Assembly: GCA_031581195.1 (NCBI GenBank)
Contig: JAVLCF010000009.1
Coordinates: 1 to 33,030, forward strand
Direction of reading: 5' to 3'
Length of the DNA: 33,030 nucleotides
From: Trueperaceae bacterium
Lineage (GTDB): Bacteria; Deinococcota; Deinococci; Deinococcales; Trueperaceae
Of the stretch, positions 7,720 to 18,840 are shown in pieces; the stretch's first letter is position 1, and every line of letters begins with the position of its first letter. Both the position numbers and the translations under genes were made by a program. The notes under the pieces were generated by a model. It was not told the origin of the DNA and did not search any database. It worked only from the letters and a program-made list of their open reading frames with translations.

Positions 7720-8549
7720 GTGCGCCGGTGCTGCGCGTCGAGCGGCTGCACCGGCGCTACGGCGCGGGGTGTCCCGCCTGCCGTGGCGAGGGGGCGGCGC
7801 TGGACCGTAACCGCTGTCCCGCCTGCGGGGCGGTGCACGCGGTGCGCGACGTATCGTTCGAGGTGCACGACGGCGAGGTGCTCGGCATCGTCGGGGAGAG
7901 CGGGAGCGGCAAATCGACGCTGCTGAACGCGTTGGCGTTCGACGACGCCCCGACGTCCGGCGCGGCCTACCTGGCGGGGTACGAGGGGGGTGCGGCGAAC
8001 GTGTTCGACGCCAACCGGCGGGCGCGCCGGCGCATCCGCAACGAGCTGCTCGGCAAGGTCTACCAGCACCCGGCGGCGGGCCTGCGCATGCAGGTGAGCG
8101 CCCTCGCGAACGTCGCGGAGAAGATGATCGCCGCCGGTGAGCGCCGCGTCGGCGTGATGGACGCGCGCGCCCGGGAGCTGCTGGACGCGACGCGCATCCC
8201 CGCGGCGCGCGTCGGCGAGCCGCCGCAGCGGTTCTCGGGCGGCATGCAGCAGCGCGTGCAGATCGCCAAGGCGCTCGCGACCCGCCCCCCGCTGGTGCTG
8301 CTCGACGAGGTCACGACGGGGCTCGACCTGTCGGTCCAGGCCCGCGTCCTGGACCTCGTCAAGACGATCCAGCGGGACCTGGGGGTCGCGATGGTGCTCG
8401 TCTCGCACGACCTGGCGGTCGTGCGGATGCTCGCCGACCGGACCCTCGTGATGCTGGACGGCGTCGTCGTCGAGCGCGGCCTGACCGATCAGATCCTCGA
8501 GGACCCCCAACACCCCTATACCCAGGAGCTCGTGTACTCGCTGGTATGA
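7716..8549 (+). CDS. phnK: C-P lyase ABC-type ATPase PhnK
   Basis: PhnK is an ABC ATPase that docks on PhnJ in the C-P lyase complex and is not a transporter subunit. The 277-residue protein has Walker A GESGSGKS (60-67), a Q-loop VYQHPAAGL, signature FSGGMQQR (173-180), Walker B LVLLDE (193-198) and the switch His in VSHDL. Oddity: between the first strand and Walker A there is a Cys4 insertion, C19-x2-C22-x11-C34-x2-C37 (CPAC and CPAC), like a zinc knuckle. E. coli PhnK lacks it as I recall. GTG start overlaps phnJ (GTGA); the stop overlaps phnM (ATGA). Confidence 0.92.
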   Translation: MSAPVLRVERLHRRYGAGCPACRGEGAALDRNRCPACGAVHAVRDVSFEVHDGEVLGIVGESGSGKSTLLNALAFDDAPTSGAAYLAGYEGGAANVFDANRRARRRIRNELLGKVYQHPAAGLRMQVSALANVAEKMIAAGERRVGVMDARARELLDATRIPAARVGEPPQRFSGGMQQRVQIAKALATRPPLVLLDEVTTGLDLSVQARVLDLVKTIQRDLGVAMVLVSHDLAVVRMLADRTLVMLDGVVVERGLTDQILEDPQHPYTQELVYSLV

Positions 8550-9781
8550 CCCGCGACCTCGCCCCCACCCGCGCCGCCGTCGACGACGCGCCCCGCCGCT
8601 GGCGCCTGCACGGCGGCCGCGTCGTCACGCCCGACGCCGTCCTCGACGGCGCGGTCGTCCGCGTCGAGGGTCGCCACGTCGCCTCGGTCGAGGCGGTCGA
8701 GGCGGCCCCCTCGGAGGCCGACGAGGTCGACGTCGACCTCGCGGGCGCGTACCTCCTGCCGGGCTTGATCGACGTCCACGCCGACTACATCGAGCACATG
8801 GCGGCGCCCCGCCCGACCGCGATGCTGAACTTCCGGTTCGCGTTGCGCGAGGCGGAGCGGGAGTTGATCACGCACGGCATCACGACGATGTTCCACAGCC
8901 TCGCGCTGTACGGGTTCGACGCCTTCGCGACGAACCCGGTGCGGCGGCCGGGGCCGACGAGGGCGTTGATCGACGTCGTGCACGCTTCGCACCGGTTCGA
9001 GCACGTGCTGCATCACCGCCTGCACGCCCGGTTGGAGATCGACGACGCCGGCCGCGTCGAGGAGCTCGCCGGCTACCTCCGGGCCGGCAAGGTGCACCTG
9101 CTGTCGTTCATGGACCACACCCCCGGCCAGGGGCAGTACCGCGACCTGGAGGCGTTCCGGGAGGCGGTGAAGGGCTACGGGACCCTCGACGATGCGGGCG
9201 TCGACGCGCTGATCGCCCGCAGCCGCGACCGCGCGCTGCTGGACGCCGACACCCTCGCCGCGCTCGCGCGGGTGGCGACGGAGCACGGCGTGGCGGTCGC
9301 GTCGCACGACGACGACGGCGAAGCGAAGGTCGACCTCGCGGCGAGCTTCGGGACCACGATCAGCGAATTCCCCATCACCCTCGACGTTGCGCGCTACGCC
9401 CGAGCGAAGGGCCTGCACACGGTCGCGGGCGCCCCCAACGTGCTGCTCGGGGGGTCGCACTCGGGGAACCTGTCGGCGGAGGCGGCGGTCCTCGACGGGG
9501 CGGTCGACGTGTTGTGCAGCGACTACTACCCCGCCGCCCTGCTGCGCGCGATCTTCGCGTTGCACGCTCGGCACGGCGGCGACCTCGCCCGCTTCGTGCG
9601 GCTCGCGACGACGAACGCCGCGGTCGCGACCCGCATCGATCACGAGACCGGCGCGCTGGTGCCGGGCCTACGCGCGGACCTGATCGCCGTGCACGTCCTC
9701 GGGGACGGCTCGCCGGCCGTCACCGACGCCTTCGCCGCCGGGGCGCCGGTCTACCGCGCCCGCTACCGCACGCACCCCTGA
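8546..9781 (+). CDS. phnM: PhnM, alpha-D-ribose 1-methylphosphonate 5-triphosphate diphosphatase
   Basis: An amidohydrolase-fold enzyme that removes pyrophosphate from the ribose triphosphate intermediate before PhnJ acts. The 411-residue protein shows the metal motif GLIDVHADYIEHM (HxD form), DHTPGQGQYRD near residue 191, SHDDDGEAK near 253, EFPITL near 273, and GAPNVLLGGSHSGNLS with the late SDYYPAALL segment, all typical of PhnM. It overlaps phnK by ATGA. The gene order K-M-L differs from the E. coli order K-L-M. Confidence 0.93.
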   Translation: MTRDLAPTRAAVDDAPRRWRLHGGRVVTPDAVLDGAVVRVEGRHVASVEAVEAAPSEADEVDVDLAGAYLLPGLIDVHADYIEHMAAPRPTAMLNFRFALREAERELITHGITTMFHSLALYGFDAFATNPVRRPGPTRALIDVVHASHRFEHVLHHRLHARLEIDDAGRVEELAGYLRAGKVHLLSFMDHTPGQGQYRDLEAFREAVKGYGTLDDAGVDALIARSRDRALLDADTLAALARVATEHGVAVASHDDDGEAKVDLAASFGTTISEFPITLDVARYARAKGLHTVAGAPNVLLGGSHSGNLSAEAAVLDGAVDVLCSDYYPAALLRAIFALHARHGGDLARFVRLATTNAAVATRIDHETGALVPGLRADLIAVHVLGDGSPAVTDAFAAGAPVYRARYRTHP

Positions 9782-9792
9782 TCGGAGGGACC

Positions 9793-9900
9793 ATGGACCA
9801 CGACCCCCGCCCCCACCCTCACGCCCGCGTCCGCCGGTCCGAGCTCGGGACGCCCCAGGCGGGCGCACGCCCCCGGGGCGGCGCGGTGGGGCGGACGTGA
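9793..9900 (+). CDS. 35-codon ORF between phnM and phnL, probable coupling leader
   Basis: A short ORF fills the only gap in the phn operon. It starts with ATG 4 bases after GGAGG (9784-9788) and ends in a GTGA overlap with the phnL start. The product is basic and His/Pro/Arg-rich (MDHDPRPHPHARVRRSELG at its start) with no recognised domain. The phnL GTG has no clear Shine-Dalgarno sequence of its own, so translation of this ORF may serve to bring ribosomes to phnL. It could also be a remnant of a lost gene. Confidence 0.45.
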   Translation: MDHDPRPHPHARVRRSELGTPQAGARPRGGAVGRT

Positions 9901-10598
9901 GCCCGCCCATCCTGCGGCTGGAGGCGGTCACGAAGACGTTCACGGTGCACGCGCTCGGAACGCGGATCGAGGCGGTCAAGGACGTCGGCTTCGACGTCGA
10001 GGAGGGCGCCTTCGTGGGGTTGACCGGCCGGAGCGGGAGCGGCAAGTCGACGGTGCTGAAGTTGGTGTACCGCACGTACCGTCCGCAGAGCGGATCGATC
10101 CGCTACCGCTCCGCGGGGTTCGGCGAGGTGGATCTGGCGGAGGCCGACGACCGCACGGTGCTGGCGTTGCGGCGCGGCGAGATCGGCTACGTCAGCCAGT
10201 TCCTGCGCGTCGTGCCGCGCACGACGGCGCGCGACGTGGTCGCCGCCGCCGCCCTGGAGGCGGGCGCGACGGTGGACGCCGCGGCGGCGGAGACCGAACG
10301 GTTGTTGGCGCACTTCGAGCTGCCCGAGGCGCTCTGGGACACCTACCCGCAGACGTTCTCCGGGGGGGAGAAGCTGCGGCTGAACGTCGCGCGGGCGATG
10401 GTGAAGCGGCCGCGCATCCTGCTTCTCGACGAGCCGACGGCGAGCCTCGACGCGCCCAGCAAACGCAAGGTCGCGGACCTGCTCGGGCGCCTGAAGGCGG
10501 AGGGCACCACGATGCTGGGGATCTTCCACGACCTGGCGTTCATGCGCGACCTCGCCGACCGGGAGATCGCCATGGAGCCCGGCGTCCGGGTGTCCTGA
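9897..10598 (+). CDS. phnL: C-P lyase ABC-type ATPase PhnL
   Basis: Second ABC-type ATPase of the pathway, needed with PhnGHI to make ribose 1-alkylphosphonate 5-triphosphate. The 233-residue protein has Walker A GRSGSGKST (44-52), a Q-loop YVSQFLRVVPR, signature FSGGEKLR (154-161), Walker B ILLLDEPTASLD and IFHDL as switch His. Length matches the family (about 225-235). No membrane partner is encoded nearby, supporting the non-transport role. It is the last phn gene; a new promoter follows. Confidence 0.9.
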   Translation: MSPPILRLEAVTKTFTVHALGTRIEAVKDVGFDVEEGAFVGLTGRSGSGKSTVLKLVYRTYRPQSGSIRYRSAGFGEVDLAEADDRTVLALRRGEIGYVSQFLRVVPRTTARDVVAAAALEAGATVDAAAAETERLLAHFELPEALWDTYPQTFSGGEKLRLNVARAMVKRPRILLLDEPTASLDAPSKRKVADLLGRLKAEGTTMLGIFHDLAFMRDLADREIAMEPGVRVS

Positions 10599-10702: not shown

Positions 10703-10948
10703 GTGAACGAACCGGACCTGTGGATGCTTTCGCTCAACGCCTTCGCGGCGGTCGTCGTGCTGTTGTCGGCGCTCGCGCTCGTCCTCGCGGCGCTCGTGCG
10801 GGTCTTCCCGGCGGACGCGAACCCGCGCGCCGCGGAGGCGGCGCCGGACCCGGCGTACGAGGCGGCGATCCGCCGGGCGGTCGAGCAGGTCGCGCCGGGT
10901 GCGCGCGTGACGGCGGTGCGCGAGGTGCACGAGGGGGGGCCGCGATGA
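10703..10948 (+). CDS. oadG: Sodium-pump decarboxylase gamma-subunit-like protein
   Basis: A small 81-residue protein with one N-terminal transmembrane helix (about residues 9-34, MLSLNAFAAVVVLLSALALV) and a soluble tail. Size, topology and position directly before an alpha subunit match OadG, which holds the alpha and beta subunits together. Sequence similarity in this family is low, so the call rests on context. The GTG at 10703 follows a strong Shine-Dalgarno sequence; it overlaps the alpha gene by ATGA. Confidence 0.72.
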   Translation: MNEPDLWMLSLNAFAAVVVLLSALALVLAALVRVFPADANPRAAEAAPDPAYEAAIRRAVEQVAPGARVTAVREVHEGGPR

Positions 10949-12795
10949 TCCACGCGTCGAGCCCGAAGCGCGTGGCGGTGATGTTGACGGCGTTCCGCGA
11001 CGGGCTGCAGAGCGTGTTCGGGGGGAAGGTGCGCGTCGCGGACGTCCTCCCGGCGATGGAGGCGGCGTCGGCGGCGGGGGTGCGGCACTTCGAGTTCGGG
11101 GGCGGCGCGCGCTTCCAGGCGCCGTTCTTCTACGTCGGCGAAGACCCGTTCGAGGCGATGGACGCCATGCGCGCCGCGGTCGGTCCCGACGCGGACCTGC
11201 AGATCCTGACGCGCAGCATCTCCGGCGTGACGTTGACCAGCCAGACGCCGGAGGCGTTGGCGTTGCAGGCGCGGTTGATGGCGAAGCACGGGACGACGAT
11301 CGACCGGAACTTCGACTTCATGAACGACGTCGGGAACCTGCTCGCGACCGGGCGGCCGATCGTGGAGGCGGGGATGCACCACCAGGCGACGGTGGCGTTG
11401 ATGGGGTTGCCGTACGCGTCGGAGCGGGTGCACACGCCCGCCTTCTACGCCGACGTCGCGCGAGGCCTGCTGGACGGCGACGTGCGGATCGATTCGATCG
11501 CCCTGAAGGACGCGTCGGGCACGACCGACCCGGCGACGGTGTACGAGACGGCGAAGCGCGTGAAGGCCCTGACGGGGTCGGAGGTGCCGGTGTGGTTCCA
11601 CACGCACGACACCGCGTCGATGGCGGTCGCCTGCACGATGGCGGCGATCCACGGCGGCGTGGACGGCGTCGACCTGTCGGTCCGGCCGTTGGCGTCGGGG
11701 ACGTCGCAACCGGACGTGCGCAGCGTCGCGCACGCCCTGAAGGGCACCGGCTACGGTCTGGATCTCGACGCGGACGCGGTGGGCGCGGTGGAGGGGGAGC
11801 TGGAGGCGGGTCTGGCGGACTACGCGTTCGACCCGATCACGTTGGCGGCGGACGCGCGGGTGGTGGGTTTCCCGATGCCGGGGGGCGCGATCGGTCCGAA
11901 CGTGTTGATGATGAAGGAGGCGGGGATCCTGGACCGGTACGCGGAGGTTCTGGCGGAGTTCCCGGTGGTGGTGGAGGCCGGGGGGGCCTGGACGAGCGTG
12001 ACGCCGGGCTCGCAGCAGTACTGGTTGCAGGCGTTCGACAACGTGCTGTACGGGCGATGGACGAAGATCGACGCGGGGTACGGGCGGTCGGTGTTGGGGT
12101 ACTTCGGGCGCCCGCCGGAGCCGCCCGACCCCGAGGTGGTGCGGATCGCGTCGGAGCAGTTGGGGCTCGCGCCGTTCGACGGCGACCCGTCGGAGGTGGC
12201 GGAGGACGGCCTGGCGCCGGCGCGCGAGGCGCTTCGCGCGCGGGGCCTGCCGGAGACCGACGAGCACGTCTTTCTGGTGGCGGCGGCGATCGTGCCGGGC
12301 AAGGCGATGGACCTCAACGAGGGGATCCGGCTGCTCGAGGGGCGGCCGCGGATCAAGCTGCCGCTCCGGACGCCGGAGGGCGCGGAGGTGGCGTCCGGGC
12401 CGGCGTCGGGGTCCGCGGCGCCGTGGACGACGCCGGTCACGCGCCGGGTGACGGTCACGGAGGGCGGTGCGACGCGGACGTTCGACGTGACGTTGGCGCC
12501 GCCGGGCGCGGCGCCGGAGGCGGCTCCGGCCCCCGTGCCGGACGCCGCCCCGGCGCCGGCCGCGGGGGGGCCGGCGACGCCGGTGCACTCGCCGTTCGGG
12601 GGGACGGTGGAGGTCCTCGCGGTGCGGGTGGGGATCGGCGAGGCGGTCGCGGAGGGGCAGGTCGTCGCGACGGTGGAGGCGATGAAGGCGGAGCACGACG
12701 TCCGCAGTCCGGTGGCGGGCGTGATCGCGTCGGTCGACGTGCGGCCGGGCGACGAGGTCGGGCCGGACGTGGCGATCGTGACGGTCGGGGGCTGA
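10945..12795 (+). CDS. oadA: Biotin-dependent decarboxylase alpha subunit (OadA-like carboxyltransferase plus biotin domain)
   Basis: Moves a carboxyl group from a 2-oxo acid, probably oxaloacetate, to biotin; the beta subunit then releases CO2 and pumps Na+. The 616-residue protein has an N-terminal carboxyltransferase barrel: RDGLQS with metal Asp19, the catalytic Lys in ALKDASGTT, metal ligands in FHTHDTAS, and LASGTSQPD. A PYC/OadA conserved region follows, then an Ala/Pro linker (about 525-550) and a biotinyl domain with VEAMKAEHD, Lys581. The first third is divergent from classical OadA (GGGARFQAPFF and LTRSISGVT in place of the usual ETWGGATFD and LLRGQN regions), so the substrate may differ. 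It overlaps oadG (ATGA). Confidence 0.85.
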   Translation: MIHASSPKRVAVMLTAFRDGLQSVFGGKVRVADVLPAMEAASAAGVRHFEFGGGARFQAPFFYVGEDPFEAMDAMRAAVGPDADLQILTRSISGVTLTSQTPEALALQARLMAKHGTTIDRNFDFMNDVGNLLATGRPIVEAGMHHQATVALMGLPYASERVHTPAFYADVARGLLDGDVRIDSIALKDASGTTDPATVYETAKRVKALTGSEVPVWFHTHDTASMAVACTMAAIHGGVDGVDLSVRPLASGTSQPDVRSVAHALKGTGYGLDLDADAVGAVEGELEAGLADYAFDPITLAADARVVGFPMPGGAIGPNVLMMKEAGILDRYAEVLAEFPVVVEAGGAWTSVTPGSQQYWLQAFDNVLYGRWTKIDAGYGRSVLGYFGRPPEPPDPEVVRIASEQLGLAPFDGDPSEVAEDGLAPAREALRARGLPETDEHVFLVAAAIVPGKAMDLNEGIRLLEGRPRIKLPLRTPEGAEVASGPASGSAAPWTTPVTRRVTVTEGGATRTFDVTLAPPGAAPEAAPAPVPDAAPAPAAGGPATPVHSPFGGTVEVLAVRVGIGEAVAEGQVVATVEAMKAEHDVRSPVAGVIASVDVRPGDEVGPDVAIVTVGG

Positions 12796-12796
12796 C

Positions 12797-13948
12797 GTGG
12801 AGGCGTGGAGCGAACTCCTGGCGGGGAGCGGGCTGCTGGCGTTGTCGTGGCGGAACGGCGTGATGTTCGTCGTCGCCGGGGTGTTGATCTTCCTGGCGGT
12901 CCGCTACAAGTACGAACCGTTGTTGTTGGTGCCGATCGGGTTCGGGGCGGTGCTGGCGAACCTGCCGGGGGCGGACCTGGCGGCGTCGAGCACCGCGGTC
13001 GCGGGGGAGGGGAAGCTGCCCCTGATGCAGTTGATCTACGAGGCGGGCATCCGCACGGAGCTGCTGCCGCCGTTGATCTTCCTGGGGGTGGGGGCGCTCA
13101 CCGATTTCCGGCCGCTGTTGGCGCGGCCGTTCACGTTGATCCTGGGGGCGGCGGCGCAGGTCGGGATCTTCGTCGCGGCGCTCGGGGCGCACTACCTGTT
13201 CGGCTTCACGCCGGAGGAGGCGGCGTCGATCGGCATCATCGGGGGGGCCGACGGGCCGACCTCGATTTTCTTGACGGCGATCCTGGCGCCGGAGTTGTTG
13301 GGGGCGGTGGCGGTCGCGGCGTACAGCTACATGGCGTTGGTGCCGGTGTTGCAGCCGCCGGTGTTGCGGGCCCTGACGACGCCGGCGGAGCGGGCGATCC
13401 CGGTGGGGGAGGCGCGGCGCGTGTCGCGCACGGCGGTGATCCTGTTCCCGATCGTCACGACGGTGCTGGTGTCGTTGCTGATCCCCGCCGCCGCGACGTT
13501 GGTGGGGCTGTTGTTGTTCGGCAACCTGTTGCGGGAGTCGGGCGTCACCGACCGGCTGGCGAAGACGGCGGCGGGGCCGTTGATCAACGTCGTGACGATC
13601 CTGTTGGGGTTGGTGGTGGGCTCGACGATGGCGGGCGCCTCGTTCCTGGCGCTCGAGACGGTGTTCATCCTGGTGTTGGGGGCGGTGGCGTTCGTGGCCA
13701 GCACCGCGGGTGGGATCCTGCTCGCGAAGGCCGTGAACGTGGCGCTGCCGCCGGAGCGCCGCATCAACCCGTGCCTGGGGGCGGCGGGGGTGTCGGCGGT
13801 GCCGATGTCGGCGCGGGTGGTGCAGGGGTTCGTGAGCGAGCACACGCAGGGGCGGGTGAACCCGTTGATGGCGGCGATGGGGCCGAACGTGGCGGGGGTC
13901 ATCGGGTCGGCGGTGGCGGCGGGGGTGTTCCTGGCGATCCTGCGTTGA
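12797..13948 (+). CDS. oadB: Sodium-pump decarboxylase beta subunit
   Basis: Integral membrane subunit that decarboxylates carboxybiotin and exports Na+. The 383-residue protein has about nine to eleven hydrophobic segments and the family hallmarks GGADGPTSIFL followed by TAILAPELLG (the essential Asp near residue 153) and NPCLGAAGVSAVPMSARVVQ in the last quarter. The GTG starts 1 base after the alpha stop. Together with the two genes before it, it forms a complete gamma-alpha-beta operon, ended by hairpins at 13950-13983. Confidence 0.92.
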   Translation: MEAWSELLAGSGLLALSWRNGVMFVVAGVLIFLAVRYKYEPLLLVPIGFGAVLANLPGADLAASSTAVAGEGKLPLMQLIYEAGIRTELLPPLIFLGVGALTDFRPLLARPFTLILGAAAQVGIFVAALGAHYLFGFTPEEAASIGIIGGADGPTSIFLTAILAPELLGAVAVAAYSYMALVPVLQPPVLRALTTPAERAIPVGEARRVSRTAVILFPIVTTVLVSLLIPAAATLVGLLLFGNLLRESGVTDRLAKTAAGPLINVVTILLGLVVGSTMAGASFLALETVFILVLGAVAFVASTAGGILLAKAVNVALPPERRINPCLGAAGVSAVPMSARVVQGFVSEHTQGRVNPLMAAMGPNVAGVIGSAVAAGVFLAILR

Positions 13949-14288: not shown

Positions 14289-14591
14289 TCAGGCGCCGGC
14301 CTCGCGGCCGCCGAGCGCGCCGAGCCGCGCACCGAGCTCCTGGAACCGGTCGCGGTCGAGTTCGTAGTAGACGTAGCGCCCGCGGCGTTCGGCGCGCACG
14401 AGGCCGGCGTCGACGAGCTGCTGCATGTGGTGGCTGACGGTGCCCTGCGCGAGCCCGAGGGTCATCTCGATGTCGCAGCTGCAGATCCCCGCGTCGTGGC
14501 GGTCGCAGACCTGGACGGGATCCTCGAGGTAGCCGAGGATCCGCCAGCGGGTGGCGTCGGCCAGGACCTTGAAGACGTGGACCTCCTCCAC
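14289..14591 (-). CDS. ArsR/SmtB-family winged-helix regulator with three cysteines
   Basis: A 100-residue repressor-type protein. It has the ArsR fold order: FKVLADATRWRILGYL at the N-terminus, recognition helix GLAQGTVSHHMQQLVDAGLV and the wing RAERRGRYVYYELD. Cysteines lie at VCDRHD and CSCDIE; the CSC pair at the start of the helix before the recognition helix corresponds to the ELCVCDL site of arsenic-sensing ArsR. A thiophilic metalloid, metal or reactive-sulfur ligand is therefore likely. It is transcribed away from the molybdoenzyme operon and is the obvious candidate regulator of it. The GTG start sits 6 bases after minus-strand TAGGAT. Confidence 0.85.
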   Translation of the reverse strand: MEEVHVFKVLADATRWRILGYLEDPVQVCDRHDAGICSCDIEMTLGLAQGTVSHHMQQLVDAGLVRAERRGRYVYYELDRDRFQELGARLGALGGREAGA

Positions 14592-14597
14592 GCGCCA

Positions 14598-14603
14598 ATC
14601 CTA
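14598..14603 (-). promoter_or_regulatory. -10 hexamer of the leaderless ArsR-type gene
   Basis: Minus-strand TAGGAT (context GGTAGGAT) ends 6 bases before the GTG at 14591; no Shine-Dalgarno sequence intervenes. Confidence 0.55.
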
Positions 14604-14692
14604 CCACGACGCTCAGGTATTGCGTGCTGGACGGCGTTCGCCCAGCGCGCCGGCGGGACGTTCGCCCTTGCCCCTCCCCGGGCCGTATCGAC

Positions 14693-14708
14693 TACCTTCG
14701 ATATCGAA
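14693..14708 (+). promoter_or_regulatory. Probable promoter with 12-bp palindrome before the molybdoenzyme operon
   Basis: A perfect palindrome TTCGATATCGAA (14697-14708) overlaps a possible -10 TACCTT (14693-14698). TTGCCC at 14668-14673 could be a weak -35 with 19-base spacing. A dimeric regulator bound to the palindrome would block the promoter; the divergent ArsR-family protein is the nearest candidate. Confidence 0.5.
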
Positions 14709-14711
14709 CGG

Positions 14712-14729
14712 TCGTGAACGGATTCACGA
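14712..14729 (+). promoter_or_regulatory. Crp/Fnr-like palindrome in the molybdoenzyme leader
   Basis: TCGTGAACGGATTCACGA is an inverted repeat with 7-bp arms and contains GTGA-N6-TCAC, the core of Crp-type sites. It lies 33 bases before the ATG at 14763. If the upstream hexamer is the -10, it falls just downstream of the transcription start, which would suit a repressor or an RNA hairpin. Confidence 0.45.
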
Positions 14730-14762
14730 GATGCCGGGACCCGAGGAAGGAAAGGGGATTCC

Positions 14763-17303
14763 ATGTCCGAACGCACACCGCACGTCTCGCGAAGGGGCTT
14801 CCTGCTCGGCTCCGCCGCGGCCGCCTCCGGCGCCCTGCTGGCCGACCGCGGCTTCGTCGACGCGCAGCGCTTCTTCACCGACGACGGCCTCGACGTCGCC
14901 GGCCTCCGCGACGCCGGCTACGAGGTCCGCCACACGATCTGCCACCAGTGCGGCGCCGGCTGCGGCCTCACCGCCCTGGTGAAGCCCGCCCCCGACGGCG
15001 GCGCCCCGCAGTTGCTGGTCCTCCCCAACCAGGACCCCGAGCACCCGCAGCGCGGCTACTGCGGGCGGGGCGCCACCGCCGCCTACACGTGGGACGGCCC
15101 CCAACGCCTCCGCACGCCGCTGAAGAACGTCGGCGAGCGCGGCGAAGGCCGCTTCGAGGCGGTCTCCTGGGAGACCGCCCTCGACGAGATCGGGGACCGC
15201 CTCGCGGCGCTCCTCGAGCGCGACGGGCCCGAAGCGCTCGCCGCCACCACCCACGACTTCAAGGGCGACCTGCAGTGGCTCATGACGCCGCTCGGCGCGC
15301 CCAACGTCGTCAAGCAGTCCAGCACCTGCAACACCGCCGGCGTCGTCGGGCGCAAATGGACGATGGGGAGCGCCTACGCCAAGCACTCCACCGTCGACCC
15401 CGACTACGACAACGTCCGCTACGTGCTGTTCCCCGGCCGCAGCCTCAACGCCCCGATCGGCGCGGTGCACCGCCTCGCGAAGGCCCGCGAGCACGGCGCG
15501 AAGGCGGTCTTCCTCAACCCCGCCATGCCCGACGTCGCCTTCGCCGACGGCGAATGGCTCGCCTGCTACCCCGGCACCGACGCCGCCTTCCTGCTCGGGG
15601 TCGCGAAGGTCCTGATCGACGAGGACCGCTACGACGACGCCTTCGTGCGTCGCTACACCGACCTGCCCTTCCTCATCCGCGAGGACGGCCTCCCGCTCAC
15701 CGAAGCGGACGTCCGCCGGGACGGCGCCGACGACCGCTACGCGGTCCGCGCCGCCGACGGCCGCCTCGCCTTCGCGGACGAGGACGTCGAGGTCGAGCTC
15801 GCCTGGGAGGGCACCGTGCGCGGCGCCGACGGCGCCGACCTCCCGGTCCGCACCGCCTGGGCGCGCCTCCTCGAACACCTCGGCGACTACGACGTCTCCC
15901 GCGTCGGGCGCATCACCGGCCTCTCGGCCGACGACGTCCTCCGCGTCGCCCGCGGGCTCGCCATCAACCGCGGCGTCGTCGAGGACACCTGGTACAACAC
16001 CCGCAACGGCAACGACACCGACGCCATCATGGCGCTGATGACCGTCAACGCCCTGCTGGGCAGCATCGACACCGTCGGCGGGCTCGGCTTCAAACCCAGC
16101 GCCAAGGTGCCCGGCGTGATGGCCACGCACGAAGGGCGCCTCGAGACGATCCGCGGCGACGGCTTCACCCTCCCCGACACCGACACCAGCGTCGACAAAC
16201 GCCGTTACCCCGAAGCGAACGCCACCTTCGACGCCGTGATCGACGCGATCCTCGACGAGGACCCCTACCCGATCACCGGCCTCATCGCGCTCGGCGCGAC
16301 GATGTTCCACCGCGATCCGAACACCGCCCGCCTCGAACGGGCGCTGCGCAAGCTGGACCTGATCGTGAACATCGACATCGTCCACCAGGAGTTCGACGAC
16401 TGGGCGGACTACGTCCTCCCCGCCGAGATGTTCCTCGAGCGCGAGGACCTCGGCCAGGTCGGTTGGTCGATGGAGGGCGTCGTCGCCCTCCAGCACCGCG
16501 TCACCGCACCCCCCGAGGGCGTCGAGGCCCGCCCGCACCTGTGGATCATGCTCGAGCTGCTGCGCCGCATCGAGCCCGGCCTGGCGCGCGCGATGGGCTA
16601 CGAGGACCGCTTCGCCGACGTCGACGTCTTCCGCCGCGACTTCCTCGCCCCCCTCCAGGACGCCCGCATCGAGGCGCTGGCCGAGACGTGGGACCTCGAC
16701 CCCGCGCAACTCCGCGAGGAGCTCGACGCCCGCGGCTTCAAGACCGTCGTCCCGCAACGCTACGGCCGCATCCCCTACCAGGAGCCGTTCGACACCCCCA
16801 GCGGCCGCCTCGAGGTGTACGCCCTCGCGCCGGTCCTGAAGGGCTACCGCGCGCACGGCTTCGCCGAGTACTTCCCGCCCCCCGCCTACACCGCGCCGTC
16901 GGCCGACGACGAACTGTTCCTCGTCAACGGCAAGAGCCCCATCGGCTCGTCCGGCGTCGCCAGCGTCGCCTTCCCCACGCAGTACCTCGTGGACAACGCC
17001 CTCTGGATCCACCCCGACGACGCCGAACGCCTCGGCCTCGCCGACGGCGACGACGCCGAGGTCGAGGGGCTCGACACCGGCTGGGTCGCCACGACCGAGG
17101 TCCGCGTCACGCCCCGCGTCCGCCCGGGCGTCGGGTACGTCTACAGCTACGCCGGCGGGAACCGCGGGTCGTTCGAACGGCGCGACGACCGCTTCGCGAA
17201 GCGCGCGAAGGGCCTCAACCCCCACTGGTTCGCGACGTCCACCATCGACCCCGTCACCGGCTCGAACGCCAACAACGCCTCGATCCGGATTCGGCGCGCC
17301 TGA
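14763..17303 (+). CDS. Tat-exported molybdopterin oxidoreductase catalytic subunit (Psr/Phs/Ttr/Arr-type)
   Basis: Catalytic subunit of a complex iron-sulfur molybdoenzyme acting outside the cytoplasmic membrane. The 846-residue protein begins with a twin-arginine signal (SRRGFLLGS at 9-17), then a [4Fe-4S] site C60-x2-C63-x3-C67-x32-C100, the two bis-MGD domains, and the C-terminal cap domain with NNASIRIRRA at the end. The probable Mo ligand is Cys189 in SSTCN, which excludes Ser-type (DMSO reductase) and Sec-type enzymes and favours the polysulfide, thiosulfate, tetrathionate or arsenate reductase branch. Length is nearer ArrA-type (about 850) than PsrA (about 760) as I recall. GAGGAAGG lies upstream of the ATG. 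Substrate cannot be settled from sequence by eye. Confidence 0.88.
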   Translation: MSERTPHVSRRGFLLGSAAAASGALLADRGFVDAQRFFTDDGLDVAGLRDAGYEVRHTICHQCGAGCGLTALVKPAPDGGAPQLLVLPNQDPEHPQRGYCGRGATAAYTWDGPQRLRTPLKNVGERGEGRFEAVSWETALDEIGDRLAALLERDGPEALAATTHDFKGDLQWLMTPLGAPNVVKQSSTCNTAGVVGRKWTMGSAYAKHSTVDPDYDNVRYVLFPGRSLNAPIGAVHRLAKAREHGAKAVFLNPAMPDVAFADGEWLACYPGTDAAFLLGVAKVLIDEDRYDDAFVRRYTDLPFLIREDGLPLTEADVRRDGADDRYAVRAADGRLAFADEDVEVELAWEGTVRGADGADLPVRTAWARLLEHLGDYDVSRVGRITGLSADDVLRVARGLAINRGVVEDTWYNTRNGNDTDAIMALMTVNALLGSIDTVGGLGFKPSAKVPGVMATHEGRLETIRGDGFTLPDTDTSVDKRRYPEANATFDAVIDAILDEDPYPITGLIALGATMFHRDPNTARLERALRKLDLIVNIDIVHQEFDDWADYVLPAEMFLEREDLGQVGWSMEGVVALQHRVTAPPEGVEARPHLWIMLELLRRIEPGLARAMGYEDRFADVDVFRRDFLAPLQDARIEALAETWDLDPAQLREELDARGFKTVVPQRYGRIPYQEPFDTPSGRLEVYALAPVLKGYRAHGFAEYFPPPAYTAPSADDELFLVNGKSPIGSSGVASVAFPTQYLVDNALWIHPDDAERLGLADGDDAEVEGLDTGWVATTEVRVTPRVRPGVGYVYSYAGGNRGSFERRDDRFAKRAKGLNPHWFATSTIDPVTGSNANNASIRIRRA

Positions 17304-17320
17304 GCGCGGAGAGGAACGCC

Positions 17321-17932
17321 ATGGCTCGTGTCAACGAAATGAAGGGAAGCGAACCCACCCGGCGCCTCGCGCACGTCTGGGACGAGAGCCTGTGCATCGC
17401 CTGCGGCGCCTGCGTGATGGCCTGCACCATGACGAACCAGCCCGAGATGATGCACCGCAAGGAGAAGGGTTGGGATTCGGTCGCCTCGAACATCCGCCGC
17501 ATCGACGGCGTGAACGCCACCGGCAAACCGTCGGTCCTTCTCGTGCAGTGCCAACACTGCCAGGACGCCCCCTGCGTTGCCAACTGCCCGTTCGGGGCGG
17601 TCTACCGCGACGACGACGGCCTCGTCCGGCTCGACGCCGAGCAGTGCGCCGGCTGCAGCTACTGCGTCACCAGCTGTCCCTACAACGTCCGCTGGTTCCA
17701 CCCCGACAGCAAACTGCCGATGAAGTGCATGGGGGAGGGCTGCCTGGACCTCGTCGCGCAGGGCGAGGACCCCGCCTGCGTGCAGGCCTGCCCGGCGATG
17801 GCGCGCGACTTCGGGGACCTCAACGACCCCGCCAGCAGCGTCTCCGTCACGCTCCGTTTGAAACGCAGCCGCCGCCTCCTCGAGGAGGCCGGCACCGACC
17901 CGACGTACTTCGTCGTGGAGGGAGGGCTCTGA
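17321..17932 (+). CDS. Four-cluster ferredoxin-type electron-transfer subunit (PsrB/NrfC-like)
   Basis: Carries electrons between the membrane anchor and the molybdenum subunit. The 203-residue protein has four cysteine groups: CIACGACVMAC, CQHCQDAPCVANC, CAGCSYCVTSC, and a split group CMGEGC followed by CVQAC. The first three have standard spacing. In the fourth the first two cysteines are four residues apart (C-x4-C) where C-x2-C is usual in this family. No signal peptide is present; such subunits are exported with the Tat-bearing catalytic subunit. GGAG precedes the ATG at 17321, and the stop overlaps the next gene by ATGA. Confidence 0.9.
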   Translation: MARVNEMKGSEPTRRLAHVWDESLCIACGACVMACTMTNQPEMMHRKEKGWDSVASNIRRIDGVNATGKPSVLLVQCQHCQDAPCVANCPFGAVYRDDDGLVRLDAEQCAGCSYCVTSCPYNVRWFHPDSKLPMKCMGEGCLDLVAQGEDPACVQACPAMARDFGDLNDPASSVSVTLRLKRSRRLLEEAGTDPTYFVVEGGL

Positions 17933-18840
17933 TGACCCCCGCCGACCTCACCTTCCAACTGGACGTCGCCCACTGGGGCTGGTCGATCGCCGCGTTCCTG
18001 TTCTTCGTCGGCATGGCCGGCATGGGCTCCGTCGCCTACGCCTTCGTGCGCCGCACCGCCGTCATCGCCACGATCTTCGTCTCCCTCGTCGTCGGGCTGC
18101 TGCTCGTCGTCAGCCACCTGGGGCGCTGGTGGAACCTCCCGCGGACGCTGTTCCTGATGGTCCGCGACCTCGAGCTGAACTTCGGGTCGTGGATGCTGAT
18201 CGGCATCACCGTCCTCTCCATCCACCTGGTCCTCGCGCTGATCGCCCTCGTCGCGCACCTCCCGTTCCTCACGAAACGCCTGCCCTGGCTGGCGTGGACC
18301 GAGCGGGTCGACGCCTCGAGGGCGTTCCTCGGGGCGTTCGCCTTCGTTGGCTTCTTCGCCACCGTCTACAGCGGCTTCCTGATCACGCAAGCGGTCGGCA
18401 TCCCGCTGTGGAACAACGCCCTCATTCCGGTGTTGTGGGTGATCAGCGGCTCGATCGCCGCCATCGCCATGCTCGAGCTGCTGTACGTCGTCGGCGCCGT
18501 CGACGCGAAGGTCTCGTCGTTCGGGGTGCGCCTCGGGATGGTCCTCGACGGCATGAAACTCCTCGCCGTGCTCGGGTTCCTCCACGTCGCGACGTCCTAC
18601 GGCAGCGCCGGCGCGCGCTACGGCGCGACGCTGATGACGAGCGGCGACCTGGCCTGGATGACGTGGGTCGGCGTCGTCGGCGTCGGCATCCTCGTGCCCC
18701 TCGCCATCGGGGCGTACACCCTGCTGCGCGAGAAGAACAAGGCGCTGTTGACCGTCTCCGCCCTCTCCGCCCTGGTCGGCGTGTTCTTCCTGCGCGCGAC
18801 CGTGCTGCTCGCCGGCACCTTCGAACCGTTGGTGCTGTGA
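17932..18840 (+). CDS. NrfD/PsrC-type membrane anchor subunit
   Basis: Quinone-interacting membrane subunit of the molybdoenzyme. The 302-residue protein has about eight hydrophobic helices, beginning WGWSIAAFLFFVGMAGMGSV, with the NrfD-family SHLGRWWNLPRTLF segment and the late helix TVSALSALVGVFFLRATVLL. It overlaps the ferredoxin gene, so the three subunits are made in one translational block. NrfD-type anchors normally exchange electrons with the quinone pool without haem. Confidence 0.88.
   Translation: MTPADLTFQLDVAHWGWSIAAFLFFVGMAGMGSVAYAFVRRTAVIATIFVSLVVGLLLVVSHLGRWWNLPRTLFLMVRDLELNFGSWMLIGITVLSIHLVLALIALVAHLPFLTKRLPWLAWTERVDASRAFLGAFAFVGFFATVYSGFLITQAVGIPLWNNALIPVLWVISGSIAAIAMLELLYVVGAVDAKVSSFGVRLGMVLDGMKLLAVLGFLHVATSYGSAGARYGATLMTSGDLAWMTWVGVVGVGILVPLAIGAYTLLREKNKALLTVSALSALVGVFFLRATVLLAGTFEPLVL

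Follow-up and report, generated by a model that had tools for sequence, protein, structure and literature searches.

We analyzed a divergent gene pair and its promoter region in Trueperaceae bacterium (GenBank assembly GCA_031581195.1), a little-known alkaline-lake bacterium. The window, i.e. the whole stretch of DNA analyzed (33,030 nucleotides), corresponds to contig C9 of this 2.45-Mb draft genome. In this window an arsR gene diverges from a three-gene operon (14763-18840) encoding the catalytic, Fe-S and NrfD-type membrane subunits of a molybdoenzyme, and the region between them carries what appear to be an ArsR operator and a Rex-type operator. Judged by the molybdoenzyme gene, the closest relatives are Trueperaceae metagenome-assembled genomes (MAGs; 92% and 68% identity). 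The features of the locus are the following.

14591-14289, minus strand: ArsR-family repressor gene, 100 amino acids (aa); HTH_5 and NF033788 profiles above cut-off; Cys29/Cys37/Cys39 (PVQVCDRHDAGICSCDIE)
14686-14703, no strand: predicted ArsR operator TATCGACTACCTTCGATA, i.e. the element that is conserved; matches TATYGA-N6-TCRATA without mismatch in the own genome, G004 and G003
14693-14698, plus strand: candidate -10 hexamer TACCTT within the ArsR operator, proposed from its position and from TATACT/TATCCT at the equivalent place in orthologs
14697-14708, no strand: palindrome TTCGATATCGAA of the initial annotation; overlaps the ArsR operator, probably incidental
14712-14729, no strand: predicted Rex-type operator TCGTGAA-CGGA-TTCACGA, i.e. 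TCGTGAACGGATTCACGA
14745-14757, plus strand: purine-rich ribosome-binding region, read from the sequence
14763-17303, plus strand: catalytic molybdoenzyme subunit, 846 aa; PF00384; RR motif of the twin-arginine (Tat) type; C60-x2-C63-x3-C67-x32-C100; Cys189
17321-17932, plus strand: Fe-S electron-transfer subunit, 203 aa; PF13247 and relatives; presumably four clusters, as in its family
17932-18840, plus strand: NrfD/PsrC-type membrane quinol subunit, 302 aa; PF03916, 86.5 bits

The initial annotation, made from the sequence alone, had described a three-cysteine ArsR protein diverging from a molybdoenzyme operon with two palindromes in its leader. The gene calls bear this out: the ArsR protein has exactly three cysteines, and the 171-bp gap between the two genes contains both palindromes, together with a third one (TATCGACTACCTTCGATA) overlapping the first. 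TTCGATATCGAA and TCGTGAACGGATTCACGA each occur once in the window. In shuffles of the whole window, TTCGATATCGAA was matched at up to two mismatches in 19 of 100 cases, which makes it weak when taken alone, and TCGTGAACGGATTCACGA was matched at up to three mismatches in 0 of 100; when the 171-bp intergenic region was resampled, TTCGATATCGAA, TCGTGAACGGATTCACGA and TATCGACTACCTTCGATA were each obtained in 0 of 2000 cases.

Orthologs of the enzyme were searched for in 81 genomes (39 at the family level and 42 at the order level), consisting of the own genome and 80 relatives. They were identified in eight genomes (59-100% identity), all the other matches being local and not exceeding about 40% identity, and a profile search in all 39 family genomes returned the same eight carriers. 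Scanning the GTDB contigs yielded 10 loci, six belonging to the eight Trueperaceae carriers and four to a gammaproteobacterial MAG, Wenzhouxiangella limi C33, a second Wenzhouxiangella and an Elioraea MAG (52-56% identity); since this was a single scan with two peptide patterns, some relatives may have been missed. The Fe-S and membrane genes follow the catalytic gene in all eight Trueperaceae loci and in the four others; the Fe-S subunit (73-96% identity) and the membrane subunit were both found in 7/7 of the other Trueperaceae ortholog loci. In all three gammaproteobacterial loci (L057, L058 and L060), a HemN-like radical SAM gene lies directly upstream of the enzyme gene (NF006385, scored in L058 and identified by eye in the other two).

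The ArsR protein is a winged helix-turn-helix protein of the ArsR/SmtB type (NF033788, 74.5 bits versus a cut-off of 55). The element conserved in its promoter region is TATCGACTACCTTCGATA, which takes the forms TATCGATTACCTTCGATA and TATTGATTACGGTCAATA in G004 and G003: the operator is kept in 3/3 same-genus orthologs, and in G003 a compensatory C/G to T/A change affects both arms. For the other members of this ArsR group, sites of the TATYGA-N6-TCRATA type were found upstream of 20 of 27 genes, at up to two mismatches. On this evidence the predicted ArsR operator is TATCGA-N6-TCGATA, and ArsR would be the protein that binds TATCGACTACCTTCGATA. The first palindrome of the initial annotation does not hold as an operator, nor is it kept, as written, in close relatives: its counterpart in G004 is TTCGATATCGAT, and it is absent from G003, where TATYGA-N6-TCRATA persists. 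In G034, a more distant ArsR (44% identity), the cysteines of which are placed elsewhere, is accompanied by two copies of the operator, each with two mismatches, between its arsR gene and the enzyme gene.

The signal of this ArsR is probably As(III)/Sb(III). Cys29, Cys37 and Cys39 are present in the own protein and in those of G004 and G003, and inspection by eye of arsM/acr3-linked relatives showed the CxC motif to be retained together with one or both cysteines of a CC pair. A paralog in the own genome (61% identity over 72 aa) has PVQSCCRREDGVCGCDLE in place of PVQVCDRHDAGICSCDIE and belongs to an arsM-arsR-acr3 operon, the ACR3 protein of which scored 425 bits (cut-off 282.8) and the ArsM-like protein 213.5 bits, below its cut-off of 263. 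Among the 30 loci of this ArsR group, tblastn located acr3, arsM or both at a distance of up to about 1.5 kb in 10, and L082 carries an arsC-like gene identified by eye. The initial annotation had named arsenite, polysulfide or a similar thiophilic ligand; the fact that the close relatives keep the company of arsenic genes favors arsenite.

The second palindrome, TCGTGAACGGATTCACGA, had been read as the site of a redox- or cAMP-responsive Crp/Fnr regulator on account of its GTGA-N6-TCAC core. The core is correct as a string and a redox regulator still seems apt, but the element fits an operator of Rex, which responds to NADH/NAD+, better than a Crp/Fnr site, and Rex very probably binds it. The excerpts of PMC2883068 and PMC5355995 give the Rex operators as TTGTGAAW4TTCACAA and TTGTGAAN4TTCACAA, with nuo and ndh2 among the targets, and place the bound site at cydA1 downstream of the transcription start. 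TCGTGAACGGATTCACGA differs from TTGTGAA-N4-TTCACAA by two symmetrical changes (T2C and A17G), and both forms occur among the sites of the family. The rex gene (PF06971) is present in 36 of the 39 family genomes, including all eight enzyme carriers, and the TCGTGAACGGATTCACGA motif was found in 7/7 of the family orthologs whose promoter could be read (mismatches: 0, 0, 1, 1, 1, 1 and 2). Absence from close relatives, which the initial annotation had named as a refutation, does not hold for this palindrome. Among the family genomes, the Rex-type motif preceded nuoA in 30/30 loci at up to three mismatches (expected 0.50) and ndh in 9/30 loci at up to two (expected 0.04); among 151 unrelated gene starts used as a control, three carried it, all belonging to one orthologous gene. 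At the nuoA sites, T/C at position 2 and A/G at the partner position tend to swap jointly, as a protein reading a palindrome would require, apart from about seven mixed sites, e.g. TTGTGAAAACGCGCACGA.

Exact matches to TCGTGA-N6-TCACGA (12 fixed bases) occur at 44 places in the 39 genomes, versus three for the reversed pattern, and seven of the 44 precede molybdoenzyme operons. Since most of the remaining places that were opened fall within coding sequences, the bare 12-base pattern does not by itself prove the presence of a site. In G035 an exact motif precedes an arrA-arrB operon, and another, which departs from the extended form at a single position, precedes a putative torD-psrA operon (with an inferred torD start codon); this MAG is 79% complete with 6% contamination, and its contigs call for caution. 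In genus g16, the neighbor of a TCGTGA-N6-TCACGA site in G019, G035, G032 and G029 (L063, L071, L072 and L141) is either proS or a gene of the lipoprotein/DCC type. Upstream of nuoA, 30 genomes of the family carry a TYGTGAA-N4-NGCACRA-type site (L262-L291), which looks like a family-wide control of complex I by Rex.

Several observations weigh against Rex at this site. The motif has no match in 21 of the 30 ndh promoters, including those of G019, G032 and G035. TCGTGAACGGATTCACGA also matches TGTGA-N6-TCACA, the Crp/Fnr consensus, with two mismatches (p 0.013), its GTGA-N6-TCAC core is retained in six of the seven orthologs, and the own genome encodes six Crp/Fnr-family proteins scoring above the Pfam cut-off. 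A symmetrical variant, ACGTGAA-N4-TTCACGT, is flanked by a LexA-like regulator gene on one side and a Crp-family gene on the other in 3/3 of the same-genus genomes inspected, namely G000, G003 and G004 (L216, L223 and L224). Lastly, a Rex-like site is lacking at the four orthologs from proteobacteria (five to seven mismatches at best), which carry FNR-like boxes instead, exact in W. limi (TTGATGTGCATCAA) and with one mismatch in the other three (p 0.001-0.013). A Crp/Fnr-family activator or repressor responding to cAMP, redox state or nitric oxide is nevertheless quite unlikely to be the protein binding TCGTGAACGGATTCACGA, given the Rex-like extended half-site TYGTGAA seen in most sites, the 30/30 occurrence before nuoA, nuo being a published Rex target, and the geometry of the promoters. 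With FNR-like boxes in the proteobacteria and Rex-type sites in Trueperaceae, it would therefore be the redox control that is constant, while the protein exerting it varies from one phylum to another.

As regards this geometry, the distance from the end of the Rex-type site to the ATG is 33 nt in the window and 22 nt in both G019 and G034. Class II activation by a Crp/Fnr protein is ruled out for the latter two, because with the site at -41.5 transcription would begin inside the gene. The distances fit a repressor located at or past the start site, a position like that of the Rex site footprinted at cydA1 of Streptomyces avermitilis, according to the excerpts of PMC2883068 and PMC5355995. The placing of TTCGATATCGAA at the likely -10 by the initial annotation is plausible, although the hexamers are weak; the candidate -10 element proposed here, TACCTT, would be covered by ArsR. 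That TCGTGAACGGATTCACGA might act as a hairpin in the 5' untranslated region of the RNA, and not as a DNA operator, is suggested by its 7-bp stem and 4-nt loop immediately 5' of the ribosome-binding region and by the additional, longer-looped CTCGTGA-N12-TCACGAG present in G003. This is most improbable: in the G003 ndh promoter the motif fills the TTGACT-N17-TAGTCT spacer between -35 and -10 and thus belongs to promoter DNA, which rules out the hairpin; moreover, operons unrelated to one another show the same spacing, and the sites at nuoA lack symmetry.

The enzyme itself had been described as Psr/Arr-like and of a new type, possibly an arsenate, polysulfide or tetrathionate reductase. The Psr/Arr-like character and the new type are supported; membership of the named families is not. 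The scores rule out ArrA (NF041714, 79.9 bits versus a cut-off of 1600, the Trueperaceae ArrA of G035 reaching 1048.7) and TtrA (NF011567, 82.4 bits versus a cut-off of 1750). PsrA/PhsA membership is ruled out by the tree, by the identity values and by the curated cut-off of the PhsA NCBIfam profile (243 bits versus 694, below which the canonical PsrA of the own genome, with 510 bits, also falls). In a tree of 38 rows, the 11 enzyme sequences form a single clade (support 100/100). Its stem is long (1.73 changes per column), and it groups as sister with 20 Psr/Phs rows at 90/85, whereas support within the Psr group is only 86/70; because of the long branches and the omission of ArxA, SrrA, SrdA and SoeA, the exact sister is unsettled. 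In terms of sequence, then, the enzyme is neither PsrA/PhsA, ArrA nor TtrA, but belongs to a lineage within the DMSO-reductase superfamily that has no name.

The cysteine residues C60, C63, C67, C100 and C189 are invariant in 11/11 sequences. Four of them fit a [4Fe-4S] site, and Cys189, which aligns with the corresponding cysteine of Thermus thermophilus PsrA/PhsA (2vpw), is likely to be the Mo ligand, as that cysteine is in PsrA. The enzyme also shares with 2vpw the spacing of the Fe-S motif and the NrfD-type membrane partner, as well as its sister position in the tree, but the identity is about 31% at best and residues ~300-365, which 2vpw lacks, can be aligned with ethylbenzene dehydrogenase. 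The AlphaFold model is too poor for any active-site argument (mean predicted local distance difference test score 61.1, predicted template-modeling score 0.50), and the Foldseek ranking (perchlorate reductase at rank 1, PsrA at 5, acetylene hydratase at 8 and ArrA at 9) separates nothing at template-modeling scores of about 0.5. The excerpt of PMC10100899 gives cysteine as the ligand in the PsrA family and describes unnamed Cys-ligated MopB branches with acetylene-hydratase-, PsrA- and DmsA-like best hits. The present lineage, which when compared with that description shares the Cys ligand and the PsrA-like and acetylene-hydratase-like structure matches, may be one of them.

Taken together, these data suggest a dual control of the kind the initial annotation had envisaged, in which a thiol-type ArsR acts alongside a redox regulator. 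The molybdoenzyme complex, presumably exported and quinol-linked, would be placed under an AND gate of two repressors: ArsR on TATCGACTACCTTCGATA would cover the -10 region and be released upon binding of a trivalent metalloid, most probably arsenite, to Cys29/37/39; Rex on TCGTGAACGGATTCACGA, at about +1 to +20, would be released when NADH/NAD+ rises as the usual acceptor is exhausted; and the operon would be transcribed once both are off, the enzyme then passing menaquinol electrons to a chalcophilic acceptor. We consider it fairly probable that ArsR and Rex jointly control an enzyme that serves respiration by reducing an arsenic- or sulfur-type acceptor. Two further findings count against this view. 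First, no ArsR gene was detected beside the enzyme in G019, G032 and G035, nor in 4/4 proteobacterial loci, so that the enzyme does not inherently come with control by arsenite; judging from these loci, it is a Trueperaceae addition, in two genera. Secondly, in G019 and G032 the enzyme operon adjoins psrABC and an exported rhodanese gene, which argues for sulfur.

The redox gating and the reductases neighboring the enzyme in the tree point to anaerobic respiration. As regards the acceptor, ArsR suggests arsenic or antimony, and the psrABC-rhodanese neighborhood sulfur: arsenate, thioarsenate or antimonate can be put forward tentatively, a sulfur compound is possible if doubtful, and another acceptor, e.g. 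selenite, would be rather unlikely. The search for arsenic and sulfur genes elsewhere in the genome returned, besides the arsM-like-arsR-acr3 operon, a canonical PsrABC (C57), and a genuine, full-length ArrA occurs in at least one carrier (G035), so that the enzyme should, by an argument of redundancy, do something else. The ArrA-ArrB-TorD operon of G035 (L126, G035:C304, 3056-5629) has ArsR and ACR3 nearby, and partial arrA genes were also noted in G034, G037 and G014.

The enzyme might still be in effect a polysulfide/thiosulfate reductase, with an ArsR sensing persulfide or polysulfide like SqrR/BigR. PsrA/PhsA are indeed the closest families, psrABC and the rhodanese gene adjoin the operon in two genomes, the ArsR shows a weak BigR match, and, according to the excerpt of PMC6704655, alkaline lakes are polysulfide-rich and phsA has been reported in Trueperaceae. 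We regard this as somewhat unlikely, as the genome already encodes the canonical PsrABC, the cysteine pattern and operator of the ArsR match those of the arsM/acr3-linked proteins, and the BigR score is 25 versus a cut-off of 155. An oxidative direction, i.e. an oxidase of arsenite or sulfur compounds in an aerobic or microaerobic host, would suit induction by arsenite; Wenzhouxiangella AB-CW3 is described as aerobic (PMC7691419, excerpt), and a Soe-like enzyme has been suggested to oxidize As(III) in Thioalkalivibrio from soda lakes (PMC6620896, excerpt). It is unlikely here, since Rex-like or FNR-like control fits expression under acceptor shortage and the nearest lineage consists of reductases. 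That ArsR and Rex jointly gate a reductase is thus the reading we retain. Its boldest form, namely a new respiratory family for arsenic or antimony species outside the range of ArrA (e.g. thioarsenate or antimonate), made only if arsenite and high NADH coincide, is a speculative one that we hold to be rather improbable.

The arr operon of Shewanella ANA-3, which was not returned by our literature search, is reportedly controlled by ArsR and cAMP-CRP. The logic of the present locus is similar, a respiratory molybdoenzyme being governed by an ArsR that probably senses arsenite and by a global metabolic regulator, but the enzyme is not ArrA and the second regulator is most likely Rex. The Rex regulons of Streptomyces and Staphylococcus, as excerpted in PMC5355995 and PMC2883068, share with the putative Trueperaceae one the operator form, the nuo/ndh targets, sites inside or downstream of the promoter and the presence of rex; they differ from it in that the Trueperaceae sites often read TCGTGAA instead of TTGTGAA and that the targets include metalloid/sulfur molybdoenzymes. 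Our literature search, of partial coverage, yielded no publication dealing with this enzyme lineage or with joint control by ArsR and Rex, and in the excerpt of a study on arsenate respiration without ArrAB (PMC9751042) psr and Rex go unmentioned. The Rex operator proposed for Trueperaceae would tie NADH dehydrogenase to alternative respiration and, if the boldest reading above is correct, the Rex regulon would bring complex I and the respiration of metalloids and sulfur together; an arsenite-type ArsR would likewise be assigned to a molybdoenzyme outside ArrA/ArxA. As the lineage is small (11 sequences here) and has a named carrier strain, W. limi C33, a new respiratory activity is directly testable.

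Elsewhere in the window, genes of a phosphonate C-P lyase cluster (PhnM- and PhnL-like) lie at 8546-10598, and OadA-like and OadB genes of a Na+-pumping decarboxylase, which were also found in G003 and G004, occupy 10720-13948, upstream of ArsR.

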